From Hymenobacter jeollabukensis (lineage in GTDB: Bacteria > Bacteroidota > Bacteroidia > Cytophagales > Hymenobacteraceae), in contig NZ_VAJM01000001.1 of assembly GCF_005771675.1 (NCBI RefSeq), positions 930,001-994,000 on the forward strand: 64,000 bases of DNA, written 5' to 3'. The notes below the pieces were generated by a model. That model made no database searches and was not told the origin of the DNA. It saw only the letters and a list, made by a program, of their open reading frames with translations. Both the position numbers and the translations under genes were made by a program. Below are positions 370 through 7,839 of this stretch, piece after piece; positions within the stretch are counted from its first letter, which is position 1; the number at the start of each line of letters is the position of its first letter.

Positions 370-1548
370 ATGATGAAGTGCAGCAAATGCAACTCCCCCG
401 ACGGAGTGCAGCGCGCCGGCTTTATTCGCGGCCGGCAGCGTTACTTCTGCAAGCTCTGCGACTACCATTTCATTGACCAGAAGCTGCCCCGTACCCCGGA
501 GCGCCGCAGCCACCAAACTACCATCAGCGACGTGGCCAAGGTGCTCGGCGTGGCGCCCAGCACCGTTTCGCGCGCGCTCAACGGCCACGCCGACATCAAC
601 ACCAACACCCGGCAGGCCATTCTGGAAGTGGCCCGGCAGCTCGACTACCAGCCCAACCTGCTGGCCCAGAGCCTGAAAAGCAGCGCCACCCACACCATCG
701 GCGTGGTCATCCCCGACATCGAGCGGCCGTTTTTCGCCACCTGCGTGAGCGGGATTCAGCAGGTAGCCTCGGAGGCGGGCTACCGCGTGATGATCTGCCA
801 GTCGAAGGAGTCGTACGAAATGGAGGTCAGCAACGTGCAGGCCCTCATTGCCTCGCGCGTCGACGGGCTGCTGATCTGCCACTCGCGCGAGACGGAAAAC
901 TTCGACCACGTGCGCCCGGCCGCCACCCGCGGCGTGCCGGTGGTGCACTTCGACCGGGTGTGCGACGAGGTGGAAACGGCCAAGGTGATACTGGACGACT
1001 GGAACGGCGCGTACAACGTGACGGAGCACCTGATTGAGCAGGGCGCCCGGCGCATTGCCATTCTGGCCGGCCCCGAAAGCCTGCTCATCAGCCGCAACCG
1101 CCTGGCGGGCTACCTCAGCGCCCTGACCAAGCACCGGCTGCCGGCCCTGCCCGAGCTGCGGACCCACATCAACTTCCGGCCCGAATCGGCGGTGGCGGCC
1201 CTGGACCGCTGGCTGGCCCTGCCCGAGCCGCCCGACGCCATTTTTGCCATCAACTACACCAACGCCTTTGACTTGCTGGTGGCCCTGAAGGAACGCCAGG
1301 TGCGCGTGCCCGAGGAAATAGCGGTGGTGGGCTTCGGCGACGAGTTTATGGCCGCCATGATCGAGCCCGGCCTGACCACCGTCAACCTGCACCCGCACCG
1401 CATCGGGCAGCAGGCGGCCCGACTGTTCCTGGAACAGGTGGAGCAAAAGGAGCGGTTTCAGCCCCGCACCTTCGTCGTCAGCGGCGACCTGATCATCCGC
1501 AAATCCTCGCTGAAAGGCCTGGGCGGCGTGTTTTCGCTGGACATTTAG
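370..1548 (+). CDS. LacI-family transcriptional regulator with N-terminal IS1-type zinc ribbon
   Basis: Sugar-responsive DNA-binding repressor or activator of 392 residues. The ATG at 370 is chosen over the TTG at 310. Residues 1-34 form a four-cysteine zinc ribbon (C4-x2-C7, C27-x2-C30, with GRQRYFC before the second pair) that looks like the N-terminal domain of IS1-type transposase InsA. Residues 50-96 are a standard LacI helix-turn-helix with hinge (VAPSTVSRALNG, then DYQPN), followed by a periplasmic-binding-protein-like ligand domain from about 105. Ordinary LacI proteins are about 340 residues and start at the helix-turn-helix, so the 48-residue extension is the odd feature. It heads a run of hemicellulose hydrolases on the same strand and probably controls them. 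The operator-like palindromes at 209-233 suggest autoregulation. Confidence 0.92.
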   Translation: MMKCSKCNSPDGVQRAGFIRGRQRYFCKLCDYHFIDQKLPRTPERRSHQTTISDVAKVLGVAPSTVSRALNGHADINTNTRQAILEVARQLDYQPNLLAQSLKSSATHTIGVVIPDIERPFFATCVSGIQQVASEAGYRVMICQSKESYEMEVSNVQALIASRVDGLLICHSRETENFDHVRPAATRGVPVVHFDRVCDEVETAKVILDDWNGAYNVTEHLIEQGARRIAILAGPESLLISRNRLAGYLSALTKHRLPALPELRTHINFRPESAVAALDRWLALPEPPDAIFAINYTNAFDLLVALKERQVRVPEEIAVVGFGDEFMAAMIEPGLTTVNLHPHRIGQQAARLFLEQVEQKERFQPRTFVVSGDLIIRKSSLKGLGGVFSLDI

Positions 1549-1775: not shown

Positions 1776-4151
1776 ATGCAACGATTCCTTTTATTGGCCG
1801 CGGGCGCCTGCCTGCTGACTCGGTTGAGCCCAGGGCAGTCGGCTGCGCTGCAACGCTTTCCGGCCACGGCCGTGGAGCTGCTGCCGGGCCCGTTTCAGCA
1901 GGCGCAGCAAACCGACAAGGCCTATCTGCTGGCCCTCGACGCCGACCGGCTGCTGGCGCCTTACCGGCTGGAGGCGGGCCTGCCCTCGAAGGCAGCGCGC
2001 TACGGCAACTGGGAAAACACCGGCCTCGACGGCCACATCGGCGGGCACTACCTCTCGGCCCTGGCGTTGATGTACGCCGCCACCCACGACGCGCAGGTGC
2101 AGCAGCGCCTGACGTATATGGTGACGGAGCTGGCCCGCTGCCAGCAGCAGAACCCGGACGGCTACCTCGGCGGCGTGCCCGGCGGCCGGGCCATGTGGGC
2201 GCAGGTCAAGGCCGGGCAGATCAACGCCAACAGCTTCGGGCTGAACCAGAAGTGGGTGCCCTGGTACAACCTGCACAAAACCTACGCCGGCCTGCGCGAC
2301 GCCTACCTCATCGGCGGCAACCAGCAGGCCCGCACCATGCTCATCCGCCTCACCGACTGGTGCCTGGACCTCACGGCGGGCCTTTCGGACGCCCAGATTC
2401 AGGACATGCTGCGCTCTGAGCACGGCGGCCTGAACGAGGTGTTTGCCGACGTGGCCCAAATCACCGGCGACAAGAAATACCTCACGCTGGCCCAGCGCTT
2501 TTCGCACCAGGCCGTGCTGACGCCGCTGCTGGCCCGGCAGGACGTGCTCAACGGCATGCACGCCAACACCCAGATTCCGAAGGTCATCGGCTTTGAGCGC
2601 ATTGCGGAGGTGGGCGGCGACCCGGCTTGGCGCGGGGCGGCGGAATTTTTCTGGCAGACGGTGGTGGACCGCCGCACCGTGTCCATCGGCGGCAACAGCG
2701 TGAGTGAGCATTTCAACCCGGCCGGCAACTTCACGTCGATGCTGGAAGGCGTAGAAGGCCCGGAGACCTGCAACACCTACAACATGCTGAAGCTCACCCA
2801 GCAGCTGTACCTGCAGAGCGGCGCCCCGCGCTACCTCGATTTCTACGAGCGGGCCATGTACAACCACATCCTCTCCTCGCAGCACCCAGGGCCGGCGGGC
2901 GGCTTCGTGTACTTCACGCCGATGCGCCCGCGCCACTACCGCGTGTATTCGCAGCCGCAGGAGGGCTTCTGGTGCTGCGTGGGCTCGGGCCTGGAAAACC
3001 ACGCCAAGTACGGCGAGCTGGTGTACGCCCACCGCAAGGAGCAGGAGTTGCTGGTGAACCTGTTCGTGCCTTCCCGCCTGAGCTGGCCCGAGCAGGGCCT
3101 GACCCTGACCCAGCAAACGACCTTTCCGCAGGAAGAACGCTCCCGGCTAGAGCTGAAACTCAAGAAGCCGCGCACCTTCGCCCTCAGCATCCGGCAGCCC
3201 GGCTGGCTGCCGGCGGGCCAGCTGGCGGTGCAGGTAAACGGGAAACCCGTGACGCCCGCCGCCACCGCGCCCGGCTACCTCACGCTCACCCGCAAGTGGC
3301 GCACGGGCGACGTGGTGACGCTGGCGCTGCCCATGCACACCACCGCCGAGGCATTGCCCGACGGCTCGCCCTGGGTATCCTTCGTGCACGGGCCCGTGGT
3401 GCTGGCCGCCGCCACCGATACCACCGACCTGCGCGGCCTGCGCGCCGACGGGCAGCGCATGGCCCACGTGGCCAGCGGCCCGCTCTACCCGCTGGAAGAA
3501 GCCCCGGTGCTCGTCACGACTACGCCCAAGGACGTGGCCGCCAGCATCCGGCCGGTGGCGGGCCAGCCGCTGACGTTTACCGCCGCCGGGCTGAGCGGCG
3601 CCGAACGGTACCAGAACCTGCGGCTGGTGCCCTTCTACCAGATCCACGACGCCCGCTACATGGTATACTGGCCGGTGACGACGCCCGAGGGCCTCGCGGC
3701 CCGCACCGAGGAAATCCGCCGCCGCGACGCCGAGAAGCGGGCCCTCGAAGCCCGCACCGTCGACCAGGTGACGCCCGGGGAGCAGCAGCCCGAGTCGGAC
3801 CACGGCTTCCGGGGCGAGCAGACGGAAACCGGCCTGCACCGCAACCGCCACTGGCGCCACGCCGCCGGCTGGTTTAGCTACCAGCTGCGTAACCCCGAGC
3901 GTGCCGCCCGCACCCTGCGCGTCACCTACGCCGGTGGCGACAAGGGCCGGCGCTTCACGATTCTGGTGAATGGCGCGCCGCTGAGCCAGGTAACGCTGAC
4001 CGGCAACCCCGAGGGCAGCTTTTACGACGTGGAATACCCGCTGCCCGAAGCCCTGCGCCGCGCCCCGGCCGCCACCTCGCTCACCGTGAAGTTCGAGGCC
4101 GCGCCCGGCTCCACGGCCGGCGGCGTGTACGACGTGCGCCTGCTCCGCTAA
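1776..4151 (+). CDS. GH127 beta-L-arabinofuranosidase
   Basis: Secreted glycoside hydrolase of 791 residues (family formerly DUF1680) that should release beta-L-arabinofuranose from plant glycans. A signal peptide occupies about residues 1-20. The (alpha/alpha)6 barrel carries the zinc-thiolate catalytic set of characterised GH127 enzymes: E330 and C332 in GPETCN, and C400-C401 in FWCCVGSG, with C400 at the nucleophile position; E311 in SEHF matches the acid/base. Beta-sandwich domains follow from about residue 430. A C-terminal extension at about 680-791 resembles the accessory domains of the long bacterial members. It is the first enzyme gene after the LacI-type regulator, 227 bases downstream, and is followed closely by GH43 and GH97 genes. 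The exact linkage specificity cannot be read from sequence. Confidence 0.93.
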   Translation: MQRFLLLAAGACLLTRLSPGQSAALQRFPATAVELLPGPFQQAQQTDKAYLLALDADRLLAPYRLEAGLPSKAARYGNWENTGLDGHIGGHYLSALALMYAATHDAQVQQRLTYMVTELARCQQQNPDGYLGGVPGGRAMWAQVKAGQINANSFGLNQKWVPWYNLHKTYAGLRDAYLIGGNQQARTMLIRLTDWCLDLTAGLSDAQIQDMLRSEHGGLNEVFADVAQITGDKKYLTLAQRFSHQAVLTPLLARQDVLNGMHANTQIPKVIGFERIAEVGGDPAWRGAAEFFWQTVVDRRTVSIGGNSVSEHFNPAGNFTSMLEGVEGPETCNTYNMLKLTQQLYLQSGAPRYLDFYERAMYNHILSSQHPGPAGGFVYFTPMRPRHYRVYSQPQEGFWCCVGSGLENHAKYGELVYAHRKEQELLVNLFVPSRLSWPEQGLTLTQQTTFPQEERSRLELKLKKPRTFALSIRQPGWLPAGQLAVQVNGKPVTPAATAPGYLTLTRKWRTGDVVTLALPMHTTAEALPDGSPWVSFVHGPVVLAAATDTTDLRGLRADGQRMAHVASGPLYPLEEAPVLVTTTPKDVAASIRPVAGQPLTFTAAGLSGAERYQNLRLVPFYQIHDARYMVYWPVTTPEGLAARTEEIRRRDAEKRALEARTVDQVTPGEQQPESDHGFRGEQTETGLHRNRHWRHAAGWFSYQLRNPERAARTLRVTYAGGDKGRRFTILVNGAPLSQVTLTGNPEGSFYDVEYPLPEALRRAPAATSLTVKFEAAPGSTAGGVYDVRLLR

Positions 4152-4214
4152 GCCTGATCAGCAATGACAACCCGACTCCTTTTCCAACCACCCCAACCCT
4201 TTCCGCCCCAGCCC

Positions 4215-5900
4215 ATGCTCCTACCGCGACTGAGACGATTCCTTGGTTCTTTAACGGCCCTGCTGCTCCTAAATTCGGCTTTATTTGCACAATCGATTGT
4301 GTTGACAAACCCGATCCTATCTGGCTTCTACCCAGACCCTAGCGTGATTCGCGTCGGGACGGATTACTACCTAGTCAACTCCACGTTTTCCTACTTTCCC
4401 GGCATCCCGGTTTTTCACAGCAAGGACCTGAAGAACTGGCAGCAGATCGGCAACGTCATCAGCCGGCCCACGCAGATGAACTTCCTGGGCGACCGGATGA
4501 CGCGCGGACTGTTTGCGCCGGCCATCGAGCACAACAACGGCACCTACTACGTCACCTGCACCCAGATCGACCACAAGGGCAACTTCGTGGTGACGGCCAA
4601 AAACCCCGCCGGCCCCTGGAGCGACCCGGTATTCTTGCCCGAGGTACGCGGCATCGACCCCTCGCTGTTTTTCGAGGGCGACAAGGCCTACGTCATCTAC
4701 AACAGCGACCCGCCCGACAACAAGCCGCTGTACTCCGGCCACCGCTCCATCAAAATCATCGAGCTGGACCCGGTGAAGCTGCAGACCGTGGGCGAGGCCA
4801 AAATCGTGGTCAACGGCGGGGTGGACCTGAGCAAAAAGCCCGTCTGGATCGAAGGGCCGCACCTGATGAAGCGCGGCAGCTGGTACTACCTGTACGCGGC
4901 CGAAGGCGGCACCTCTGTGAACCACACCGAAGTAGTGTTCCGGGGCAAATCGGCCTGGGGGCCATTCGTGCCCTACGAGAAAAACCCGATTCTCTCGCAG
5001 CGGGAGCTGCCCCAGGACCGCAAAGACCCGATTACCTCGGCCGGGCACGCGCAGTTCGTGGACGGGCCCGACGGCAAGACCTACGCCATCTTCCTGGCCG
5101 TGCGCCCCTACGAGGGCAACCACTACAACACCGGCCGCGAGACGTTTATCGTGCCCGTGGAGTGGAAAGACGAGTGGCCGGTGACGGTGCCGGGTCCCAA
5201 TGGCGTGCAGTACAGCTACCCGGCAAAATTTCCGGAGGTGAAGCAGCCCGGCGCCCGGCCGCAGAGCGGCAACTTCGGCTACACCCTCACCTTCGAGAAG
5301 CAGCTCGATCCGGCCCTGCTCTTCATGCGCACCGTGGACAGCAGCAGCTTCTCGCTGAGCAAGGCCAACGGCCTTACGCTGAAGCTCAAGCCCGAAACCG
5401 TGGCCGAAACGGGCAACCCGGCCTTTATCGGCAAGCGGCAGCAGCACATGTACGGCAGCACCGAAACCGAGCTGAACTTCGCGGCCAAAGCGGCCAACGA
5501 ATCGGCGGGCTTGGTGGTGTTTCAGGACGAAAAGCACTTCTACTACCTCTGCAAATCGGTGGCCGACGGCAAGCCGGTGGTGCAGCTGCTGAAAAGCACC
5601 GCCGAGGTCAACAAAACCGAGAAGCTGGCCCAGGCCCCGCTGAAAGCGGCCGGCGGCAAGCTGGGGCTGCGGGTCAGCTTCGCGGGCGACAAGTACGGTT
5701 TCCAGTTCTCGGAGGACGGCAAGAAGTGGCAGACGCTCCAGGACCAGGTGGACGCGCGCTTCCTGAGCACCCAGACGGCGGGCGGCTTTATCGGCTGCGT
5801 GCTGGGCATGTACGGCACCTCGGCGGGCCAGCCCACGACCAACACGGCCGCCTTCAAGTGGCTGAAATACGCGGGTAACGACCCGATGTACCGCAAATAA
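4215..5900 (+). CDS. GH43 beta-xylosidase / alpha-L-arabinofuranosidase
   Basis: Secreted five-bladed propeller glycosidase of 561 residues acting on xylan or arabinan oligosaccharides. The start at 4215 gives a clean signal peptide ending near FAQS (residue 26); an upstream in-frame ATG at 4164 would add 17 proline-rich residues. The three GH43 acids are present: base D41 in YPDPS, D148 in RGIDPS and acid E213 in WIEGPH. Residues from about 360 to the end form the concanavalin-like beta-sandwich found at the C-terminus of beta-xylosidases. The gene follows GH127 by 63 bases and precedes GH97 by 10, so the three are probably cotranscribed. Xylosidase and arabinofuranosidase activities cannot be separated by eye. 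Confidence 0.93.
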   Translation: MLLPRLRRFLGSLTALLLLNSALFAQSIVLTNPILSGFYPDPSVIRVGTDYYLVNSTFSYFPGIPVFHSKDLKNWQQIGNVISRPTQMNFLGDRMTRGLFAPAIEHNNGTYYVTCTQIDHKGNFVVTAKNPAGPWSDPVFLPEVRGIDPSLFFEGDKAYVIYNSDPPDNKPLYSGHRSIKIIELDPVKLQTVGEAKIVVNGGVDLSKKPVWIEGPHLMKRGSWYYLYAAEGGTSVNHTEVVFRGKSAWGPFVPYEKNPILSQRELPQDRKDPITSAGHAQFVDGPDGKTYAIFLAVRPYEGNHYNTGRETFIVPVEWKDEWPVTVPGPNGVQYSYPAKFPEVKQPGARPQSGNFGYTLTFEKQLDPALLFMRTVDSSSFSLSKANGLTLKLKPETVAETGNPAFIGKRQQHMYGSTETELNFAAKAANESAGLVVFQDEKHFYYLCKSVADGKPVVQLLKSTAEVNKTEKLAQAPLKAAGGKLGLRVSFAGDKYGFQFSEDGKKWQTLQDQVDARFLSTQTAGGFIGCVLGMYGTSAGQPTTNTAAFKWLKYAGNDPMYRK

Positions 5901-5910
5901 GCCCCGCCGT

Positions 5911-7839
5911 ATGCGTTATTTTAGCCTAATCACCTTGCTCGTGTTACCCCTCGGCGCCGCCCGGGCCGCCCAGCCCGTTCAGATAAATAGCCCCGACGGG
6001 GCCGTGCGCGTGACGGTGGACCTGACCGCCCAGGGCCAGCCTACTTACGCCGTGCGCTACGGCCAGACGGAGCTGCTGCAACCCTCGCGCCTGGGTCTGA
6101 AGCTGGCCGGCGCCGACCTCAGCCAAGGCCTGCGCCTGACCCAGGCCGATAAGCCCAGCACCGTCGCCGACGACTACCAGCTCAACACCGACAAGCGCGC
6201 CCACTGCCGCTACCGGGCCACCCGGCGCGTGCTGCACTTCGCGGGCGCGGCCGGCGGGCCGCAGCTCAGCGTCATCTTCCAGGTGTCCGACGACGGGGTG
6301 GCGTTTCAGTACCTCATCGAAGGCCCGGCCAAAGACGTGCAGCGCATCACGCAGGAAGCCACCACGTTTCGGCTGCCGGGCGGGGCCAAGGGCTGGCTGC
6401 ACCCGCACGCCAAGGCCCAGACCGGTTTTGCCAACACCCAGCCCTCGTACGAGGAGAATTACCAGCGCGGAATTGCAGTCGGCACGCCTTCGCCGCTGGG
6501 CCAGGGCTGGTCGTTTCCGGCCTTGTTTCAGACCGATGGGCACTGGCTGCTGCTGACCGAGGCCGGCATGGGCCGCACCTACTGCGGCGCCCACCTGGCC
6601 CACGAATCGGCGGGCGGCGAGTACCAGGTGGCCTTTCCGCAGGCGCCCGAAAAAACCACGCCCGAAGCGGCTTTGCTGCCCGAAAGCCCGTTACCCTGGC
6701 GCACACCCTGGCGCGTGCTGGTGCTGGGCAAGTCCCTGGCTCCCATCGTGGAATCGACTTTGACCACCGACCTGAGCGCGCCGACCCAGACGCCCGTGCT
6801 GCCCAATGCGCCGGGCAAATCGTCGTGGTCGTGGGTGCTGATGGGCGACCAGAACACCACCTACGACGTGCAGCGCCGCTTTATCGACTACGCGGCCGAT
6901 ATGCGCTGGCAGTACTGCCTGGTGGATGCGCTCTGGGACAAGCAGATCGGCTACGACAAGGTGCAGGAGCTGGCTCAGTACGCCCGTAGCAAGAACGTGG
7001 GGCTGCTGGTGTGGTACAACTCGAACGGGAGCTGGAACCAGGCCCCGCAGACGCCCACCAACGTGCTGTTTGAGCCCGAAAGCCGGCGCCGCGAGTTTGC
7101 CCGCATCAAGCAGATGGGCGTGGCCGGGGTGAAAATCGACTTTTTCGGCGGCGACGGGCAGTCGTTTATGAACTACTACCAGGATTTGCTGGTGGACGCG
7201 GCCCAGGTCGGGCTGCTGGTGAACTTCCACGGCGCCACCCTGCCGCGCGGCTGGAACCGCACCTACCCCAACCTGATGACGATGGAGGCGGTGAAGGGCT
7301 TCGAGTTTCTGACCTTTGACCAGCGCAACACCGACCAGGAAGCCACGCACTGCGCCACTCTGCCCTTTACCCGCAACGCGGTGGGCCCGATGGACTTCAC
7401 GCCGGTGGCGTTTTCGGAAATCCGGGGCAAGCAGCGCCGCACTTCCAACGCCTTTGAGCTGGCCCTGGCGGTGCTGTTCCAGTCGGGTATCCAGCACTAC
7501 GCCGAAACGACCGAGGGCATGGCCGCCCAGCCCGCCTACGTGCAGGACTTCATGCGCAGCCTGCCGCCGCGCTGGGCCGATGTGAAGTACCTCGACGGCT
7601 TCCCCGGCGGGTACGCCGTGCTGGCCCGCCAGGCCCCCGACGGCCGCTGGTACCTGGCCGGCATCAACGGCACCGACCAGCCCAAAACCCTGCAACTGGA
7701 CCTGGGCAAGCTGGGCCTCTCGGCCGGCACCGTCATCACCGACGGGGACACCAACCGCAGCTTCCGCACCCAAGCCGCGACGGGCAAGACGCTGAATCTG
7801 ACGCTGCCCGCGCGCGGTGGCTTCGTGGTGCGGCCCTGA
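5911..7839 (+). CDS. GH97 retaining alpha-glycosidase (alpha-galactosidase-like)
   Basis: Secreted or periplasmic GH97 enzyme of 642 residues with a signal peptide at 1-20, an N-terminal beta-sandwich (about 22-290), a TIM barrel (about 300-560) and a C-terminal beta domain. The barrel shows VKIDFF with D410 at the nucleophile position of the retaining branch, and E459 in LMTMEAVKG at the acid/base position. Retaining members such as the characterised Bacteroides alpha-galactosidase carry these residues, while the inverting SusB-type alpha-glucosidases do not. I therefore favour alpha-galactosidase, or another retaining alpha-glycosidase, over SusB. It lies 10 bases after the GH43 gene. In a hemicellulose cluster it could trim alpha-galactosyl or similar side groups. 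Confidence 0.92.
   Translation: MRYFSLITLLVLPLGAARAAQPVQINSPDGAVRVTVDLTAQGQPTYAVRYGQTELLQPSRLGLKLAGADLSQGLRLTQADKPSTVADDYQLNTDKRAHCRYRATRRVLHFAGAAGGPQLSVIFQVSDDGVAFQYLIEGPAKDVQRITQEATTFRLPGGAKGWLHPHAKAQTGFANTQPSYEENYQRGIAVGTPSPLGQGWSFPALFQTDGHWLLLTEAGMGRTYCGAHLAHESAGGEYQVAFPQAPEKTTPEAALLPESPLPWRTPWRVLVLGKSLAPIVESTLTTDLSAPTQTPVLPNAPGKSSWSWVLMGDQNTTYDVQRRFIDYAADMRWQYCLVDALWDKQIGYDKVQELAQYARSKNVGLLVWYNSNGSWNQAPQTPTNVLFEPESRRREFARIKQMGVAGVKIDFFGGDGQSFMNYYQDLLVDAAQVGLLVNFHGATLPRGWNRTYPNLMTMEAVKGFEFLTFDQRNTDQEATHCATLPFTRNAVGPMDFTPVAFSEIRGKQRRTSNAFELALAVLFQSGIQHYAETTEGMAAQPAYVQDFMRSLPPRWADVKYLDGFPGGYAVLARQAPDGRWYLAGINGTDQPKTLQLDLGKLGLSAGTVITDGDTNRSFRTQAATGKTLNLTLPARGGFVVRP

Follow-up and report, generated by a model that had tools for sequence, protein, structure and literature searches.

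The ribbon-bearing LacI regulator and its neighbours

The window analysed here is a 64,000-nucleotide stretch of DNA from Hymenobacter jeollabukensis. On its forward strand, an open frame at positions 370 to 1548 encodes a LacI-type regulator of 392 amino acids (plus stop) that starts MMKCSKCNSPDGVQRAGFIRGRQRYFCKLCDYHF. Residues 1-36 (370 to 477) form a zinc ribbon of the IS1/IS1595 type with the spacing CxxC-x19-CxxC, as indicated by the NCBIfam model NF050000, the AlphaFold model and the invariant cysteines (residues 4, 7, 27 and 30). The GRQRYFC motif is present. Next come a variable linker (residues 37-49, 478 to 516), with pLDDT below 50 at residues 39-46, and the LacI helix-turn-helix (HTH) DNA-binding domain (residues 51-96, 520 to 657; Pfam PF00356, 50.2 bits). 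These are followed by a periplasmic-binding-protein-like sugar-sensing domain (residues 107-380, 688 to 1509; Pfam PF00532/PF13377, with 118.1 bits for Peripla_BP_1; Foldseek matches to CcpA, RbsR and PurR). The arrangement read from the letters in the preliminary description, i.e., CxxC...CxxC with GRQRYFC at the N-terminus and then a LacI HTH, is borne out by the translation and by Pfam. On the reverse strand there is a 426-residue open frame over the same gene, which we judge to be a shadow ORF of a GC-rich gene.

The ribbon is InsA-like, and it is not an InsA domain by Pfam's rule. The NCBIfam model IS1_IS1595_Zn (NF050000, cut-off 28) gives 29.7 bits for residues 1-49 alone and 24.9 bits within the whole protein. 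Pfam Zn_ribbon_InsA gives 16.1 bits, under its gathering cut-off of 26.1. The earlier assignment to IS1-type ribbons clears the cut-off of the first model on residues 1-49 but not in the whole protein, and falls short with the second. In a chosen set of 22 family ribbons, IS1_IS1595_Zn matches all 22 at E<=0.01 and Zn_ribbon_InsA matches 18 at E<=0.1. IS1 InsA and the N-termini of IS1/IS1595 transposases have, like the window protein, a CxxC...QRYxCxxC ribbon directly before an HTH. Unlike InsA, the window protein has an HTH of the LacI type and then a sugar sensor, without a transposase part. Its ribbon may derive from a transposase or may share an ancestor with one. Beyond the HTH, no transposase catalytic domain was found among the 22 Pfam families listed and 25 of the 33 NCBIfam families. 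The requirement for zinc finger and HTH in InsA reportedly traces back to a study by Ohta in 2004. Specific binding of the IS1 ends by InsA is described as needing both elements (PMC12428005). What we propose below for the window protein is the same arrangement, except that the HTH is of the LacI type.

In the AlphaFold model, which is of a monomer without DNA, residues 1-30 fold as a three-stranded ribbon with block-mean pLDDT of 81-87, and the ribbon modelled alone has the same strands. A Foldseek comparison of this ribbon with solved structures gave no match at E<=0.001. The first-ranked structure is the plant Dof domain of CDF1 (PDB code: 8xuf), a DNA-binding ribbon, with a ribbon profile E of 0.011 and a Foldseek E of 0.25 (probability 0.89), neither of which is significant. 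In the reverse comparison, the Dof model does not match the window ribbon at E<=0.1 and matches 5 of the 22 relatives weakly (best E 2.7e-4). Kinship with Dof is suggestive and not significant.

Similar ribbons are found in other proteins. In the window's genome, a 419-residue open frame has one near its C-terminus (G000:C10:15781-15882, L019). In a sample of 395 genomes of the phylum, proteins of about 140 residues (L111-L133, e.g., L113 and L128) combine the same kind of ribbon with a transposase-like HTH and a conserved tail ending in IKWERF or similar, with one match per genome in most of the genomes hit. From their sequences, these look like domesticated InsA-type regulators.

The regulator gene is divergent from a uxuA-GH67-SusC/D locus. 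The 5' end of uxuA (mannonate dehydratase) occupies positions 1 to 31 of the reverse strand, and the gene runs beyond the window to G000:C1:928772; its start at 31 or 19 is our reading, since a longer frame is open upstream. Scores are 412 bits for uxuA and 488 bits for the middle domain of the GH67 alpha-glucuronidase. Conserved linkage to uronate genes is seen in the fused relatives. Among 85 distinct fused loci, the upstream clusters include uxuA in 50, GH67 in 46, a short-chain dehydrogenase in 46, a SusC-type TonB receptor in 61 and a SusD-type protein in 40, all of which are lower bounds because many stretches end about 3 kb upstream. The identities come from Pfam on cluster examples, and loci counted as having no uxuA or GH67 mix true absence with stretches that are too short. 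Nearly all of these upstream proteins are on the opposite strand (58 of 63 members for the short-chain dehydrogenase). Downstream, on the same strand as the regulator, are GH127, GH43 and GH97 genes (1776 to 7839). These were considered as an obvious target and set aside, since the conserved neighbours stand on the other side. The conserved neighbours make control of glucuronoxylan and uronate use likely. LacI-type regulators have been predicted for glucuronate and galacturonate genes elsewhere, namely KdgR, UxaR and UxuR of Bacteroides and UxuR2 of Algoriphagus (PMC3878776, PMC5507952). These also combine a LacI-type protein with uronate genes; the likeness is one of description, and the word zinc is in neither main text.

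Conservation of the fusion

The fusion is real, conserved and selected, and it is neither a start-codon artefact nor a one-off. A check in other Bacteroidota, as had been suggested, recovered it in 4 of 8 genomes of the genus and 83 of 204 genomes of the family, as well as in Chitinophaga and one more family of the order. For each of the 83 genomes (match at 1e-15), the best match is at 1.1e-36 or below and begins at residue 1-3. At the level of the order, a match at 1e-15 is present in 97 of 390 genomes, and matches beginning at residue 4 or earlier are confined to two families, f1 and f11, the latter of which we take to be Spirosomaceae. In the named collection, 67 loci encode a relative, and 46 of these (L135-L180), mainly from Hymenobacter with Emticicia and Chitinophaga in addition, start at residue 1. 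The first 103 residues of the window protein are identical in Hymenobacter edaphi.

We compared 77 distinct fused proteins, picked by a match start at residue 5 or earlier, with identical proteins counted once. The four cysteines together with G17, R20, G21, R24 and F34 are unvarying in all of them, and ATG, GTG or TTG is at position 1 in 77 of 77. A start codon within codons 44-50 occurs in 2 of the 77, and the window frame has no in-frame start codon between codons 13 and 55. A late start near residue 46, a possibility named at the outset as one that could undo the fusion, is contradicted by this survey. Against six relatives, pN/pS is 0-0.22 for the ribbon and 0-0.86 for the linker. Not one amino acid of the ribbon differs from L085 and L086, against which pN for the sensor domain is 0.13-0.14. 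Judging from these ratios, the ribbon is under purifying selection.

A putative composite operator with outer caps

Between the regulator gene and the divergent uxuA is a putative composite operator, ATACCGCAAACGTTTCCGAAAACGGTTTCGATAGGTA, at positions 204 to 240 (no strand assigned). It has two LacI cores 12 bp apart and the outer caps TACC and GATA. The paired palindromes had been placed at 209-233, and these limits correct that position. The consensus is approximately CTATCGGnAACGTTTCCGGAAACGTTnCCGATAGGTA, with cores 12 bp apart, the middle CG in common and the caps CTAYC and GATAG. Of 97 distinct regions upstream of fused genes, 91 contain a match of more than 10 bits to a weight matrix refined from one relative, and the best score in one shuffle per region (n=97) is -5.3 bits. 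The 97 regions remain from 136 after removal of those under 200 bp and of duplicates in the 200-bp upstream end. The cap T and A are conserved in 91 of 91 sites each on the right and in 85 and 86 of 91 on the left, including 21 of the 91 sites that are in the other orientation. The misses are L213, L095, L204, L209, L206 and L178. Three of them (L204, L209 and L206) coincide in position with L066, L084 and L078, where a single core is seen by eye, and in L066 and L084 this core is capped on both sides. In the window's genome, the strict tandem pattern with up to 3 mismatches has a single site, in front of the ribbon-LacI gene, so a wider regulon is without support.

To compare ribbon-bearing with ribbon-less regulators, we used 217 distinct LacI proteins, 138 of them fused and 79 ribbon-less, from which matches had been dropped if they began beyond residue 12 of the HTH part or stopped short of position 300. 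Later, 20 more ribbon-less rows, sorted by cysteine pattern alone, brought that class to 99, with identical proteins or cores counted once. The strict capped site, TAYCR-N22-YGRTA, is upstream of 117 of the 138 fused genes and 1 of the 79 ribbon-less genes (1 of 99 after enlargement), and in 33 of 4340 shuffles. The lone ribbon-less match (L234) is without a LacI core. Of the 79 ribbon-less rows, 26 are less than 45% identical to the window protein and include distant paralogues; the other 53 have no strict capped site. Within a mixed clade of 97 rows, the site is in 41 of 46 fused and 0 of 51 ribbon-less genes. Among spacings of 16-29 in the fused set, only 22 stands out (a spacing of 16 gives 17, the others 0-3). 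The strict site is absent in 21 of the 138 fused genes, and a relaxed rule also fails in 9 of the 138. Under this relaxed rule, 13 of the 99 ribbon-less genes score, as do 20 of 495 shuffles.

A search for 12-bp core pairs that ignores the caps finds them in 119 of the 138 fused and 30 of the 99 ribbon-less genes (shuffles, 5 and 3), where some of the 30 are misregistered GGGAA pairs beside T-runs. Both caps accompany 107 of the 119 fused pairs, with one cap in 9 and none in 3. For the 30 ribbon-less pairs, these numbers are 0, 2 and 28. Uncapped 12-bp pairs are kept in the ribbon-less L321-L323, L325 and L337. Pairs of GGGAAYRTTCCC-like sites are upstream of 48 ribbon-less genes, at spacings of 12 (1 gene), 19 (13), 20 (21) and 22 (13), and are in none of the 138 fused genes examined.

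Possible role of the ribbon in operator recognition

We suggest that the protein is a ligand-responsive LacI-family repressor of the glucuronoxylan/hexuronate locus and of its own gene. Repressor dimers would occupy the composite operator that separates lacI from the divergent uxuA operon. Each LacI HTH would read an AACGTT-centred half-site in the usual way, following the known half-site rules of LacI proteins. The N-terminal ribbon, on its short flexible linker, would extend beyond the usual half-site and read the CTAYC/GATAG caps, whose T and A lie 10 and 9 bases away from the centre of the core. The ligand would be a uronate or a product of it, and the ribbon would be expected to bind zinc. 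We regard a repressor whose ribbon makes a second, base-reading contact at the operator ends as the best explanation of the comparative data, with a probability of about two in three. The comparative evidence that DNA recognition involves the ribbon is good, and from co-occurrence we infer contact. The proposal that the ribbon module alters operator recognition thus accords with its conservation, its selection, its transposase-like character and its company with the capped operator, and this support is comparative in kind.

The caps could be read instead by the co-inherited LacI HTH, N-terminal arm or hinge, with the ribbon merely travelling along and stabilizing the head. This we consider unlikely. 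It draws on mosaic proteins whose whole head (ribbon, HTH and hinge) differs from that of ribbon-less relatives. For example, the sensor domains of L250 and L251 are 85-88% identical to those of ribbon-less LacIs and their ribbon heads are at best 66% identical; both proteins have a ribbon-type operator, which carries the two caps in L251 and the right cap only in L250. Similarly, L291 is 82% identical to ribbon-less LacIs in the sensor and 68% in the head, and has an operator of the ribbon type; its ribbon-less sister L288 has a GGGAA pair at 22 bp. Since the whole head differs, these proteins are weakened as cases that isolate the effect of the ribbon. However, L225, the single head-matched case, resembles the fused proteins in its HTH and hinge and shares their KRHQ arm (identity with fused heads, 73% at most), is ribbon-less, and has a 12-bp pair of the GGGAA kind without caps. 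The 30 ribbon-less core pairs, not one of which carries both caps, also speak against a reading by HTH or hinge. Taken together, the mosaics and L225 indicate that the kind of operator tracks the head and, within the limits of these few informative cases, that the caps track the ribbon. On the tree, five ribbon changes are needed with 217 rows (quick search method) and four with 237 rows. In four independent ribbon-change pairs, the caps change in the same direction in an average of 3.1 of 4 and in the opposite direction in 0.0. The sign test gives 0.125 at best, short of significance, because four pairs cannot reach it.

Alternatively, the ribbon could be a protein-contact module that joins neighbouring dimers or contacts RNA polymerase, and the caps would then be a by-product of spacing or promoter sequence. 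Zinc ribbons also serve in protein contacts, two overlapping LacI sites 12 bp apart would imply close contact between dimers, and the GTA beyond the right cap resembles a Bacteroidota -7 box. Yet 12-bp core arrays exist without a ribbon, and the cap T and A are conserved on both sides in either orientation of the site. These points make a protein-contact role quite improbable. The ribbon was also considered as the cause of the 12-bp overlap, an idea that we rejected since ribbon-less relatives show the same overlap. The ribbon-less L336 has three consecutive palindromic 12-mers, uncapped, at 187-211 bp before the start of its LacI gene; adjoining LacI sites at a 12-bp distance are thus more widespread in the branch.

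A ribbon that senses zinc or redox state and so switches the regulator would suit the four invariant cysteines. This reading does not account for the basic RGxQR loop, which is conserved, or for the association with operator letters, and the gene context is one of sugar use, neither metal nor redox; we regard it as very improbable. We give almost no weight to an artefact with a true start near residue 46, or to a relic ribbon, for which nothing was found in favour and against which stand the start codons and the low pN/pS of the ribbon.

Returning to the base-reading ribbon, ribbon, HTH and hinge may be one inherited DNA-reading cassette, which in a few species sits on a sensor domain otherwise paired with a plain LacI head. 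We lean slightly towards a broader proposal, in which a transposase-type ribbon became a base-reading contact, and a transferable cassette makes a 32-bp capped composite operator out of a plain LacI site. Regulators with the same sensor would then switch operator code by gain or loss of the cassette.

LacI/GalR is a textbook family whose DNA specificity is usually attributed to the HTH and hinge. The window protein shares the common order of HTH, hinge and sensor domain with LacI/GalR repressors such as CcpA, PurR and RbsR, its best Foldseek matches. In Pfam, its HTH is followed by a periplasmic-binding-protein-like domain, and a palindromic operator with a central CG is upstream of its own gene (AACGTT cores, 91 of 97 regions). 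The HTH is, however, preceded by 50 residues and is not at the very N-terminus. Because of this, with the other tested features present, we call the protein a LacI/GalR variant and not a standard member; the fusion is a new variant of the family. A survey of 1303 LacI regulators, in whose main text the words zinc and Bacteroidetes do not occur, reports palindromes of 16-22 nt; for 1173 of the regulators, the palindrome is even and has CG at its centre (PMC4052901). Compared with that survey, the window regulator has an extra N-terminal ribbon and a 32-bp capped composite site in place of 16-22 nt palindromes. Among the papers listed in searches of the CC-licensed PMC literature, outside which most subscription journals lie, we recognized none, from title and abstract start, as describing a zinc-ribbon LacI. 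The ribbon branch, with its matching change of operator, offers a natural and testable case of how specificity may be gained by an added module and not by mutation of the recognition helix. It links transposase-type ribbons, and perhaps plant Dof fingers too, with transcription control. In addition, the operator model can be used for finding glucuronoxylan regulons in Hymenobacter and its relatives.

Two further features of the branch were observed. Compared with L085-L087, the sensor domain (688 to 1509) has a pN/pS of 0.42-0.49, while the DNA-binding head hardly changes, and this may reflect shifting ligand use. Many fused genes of relatives (e.g., L088, L089 and L093) share a TAATACnATT-like motif some 10 bp ahead of the start codon, which may belong to a promoter or serve in ribosome binding, and the window has CCCATTCCCACG at this position.
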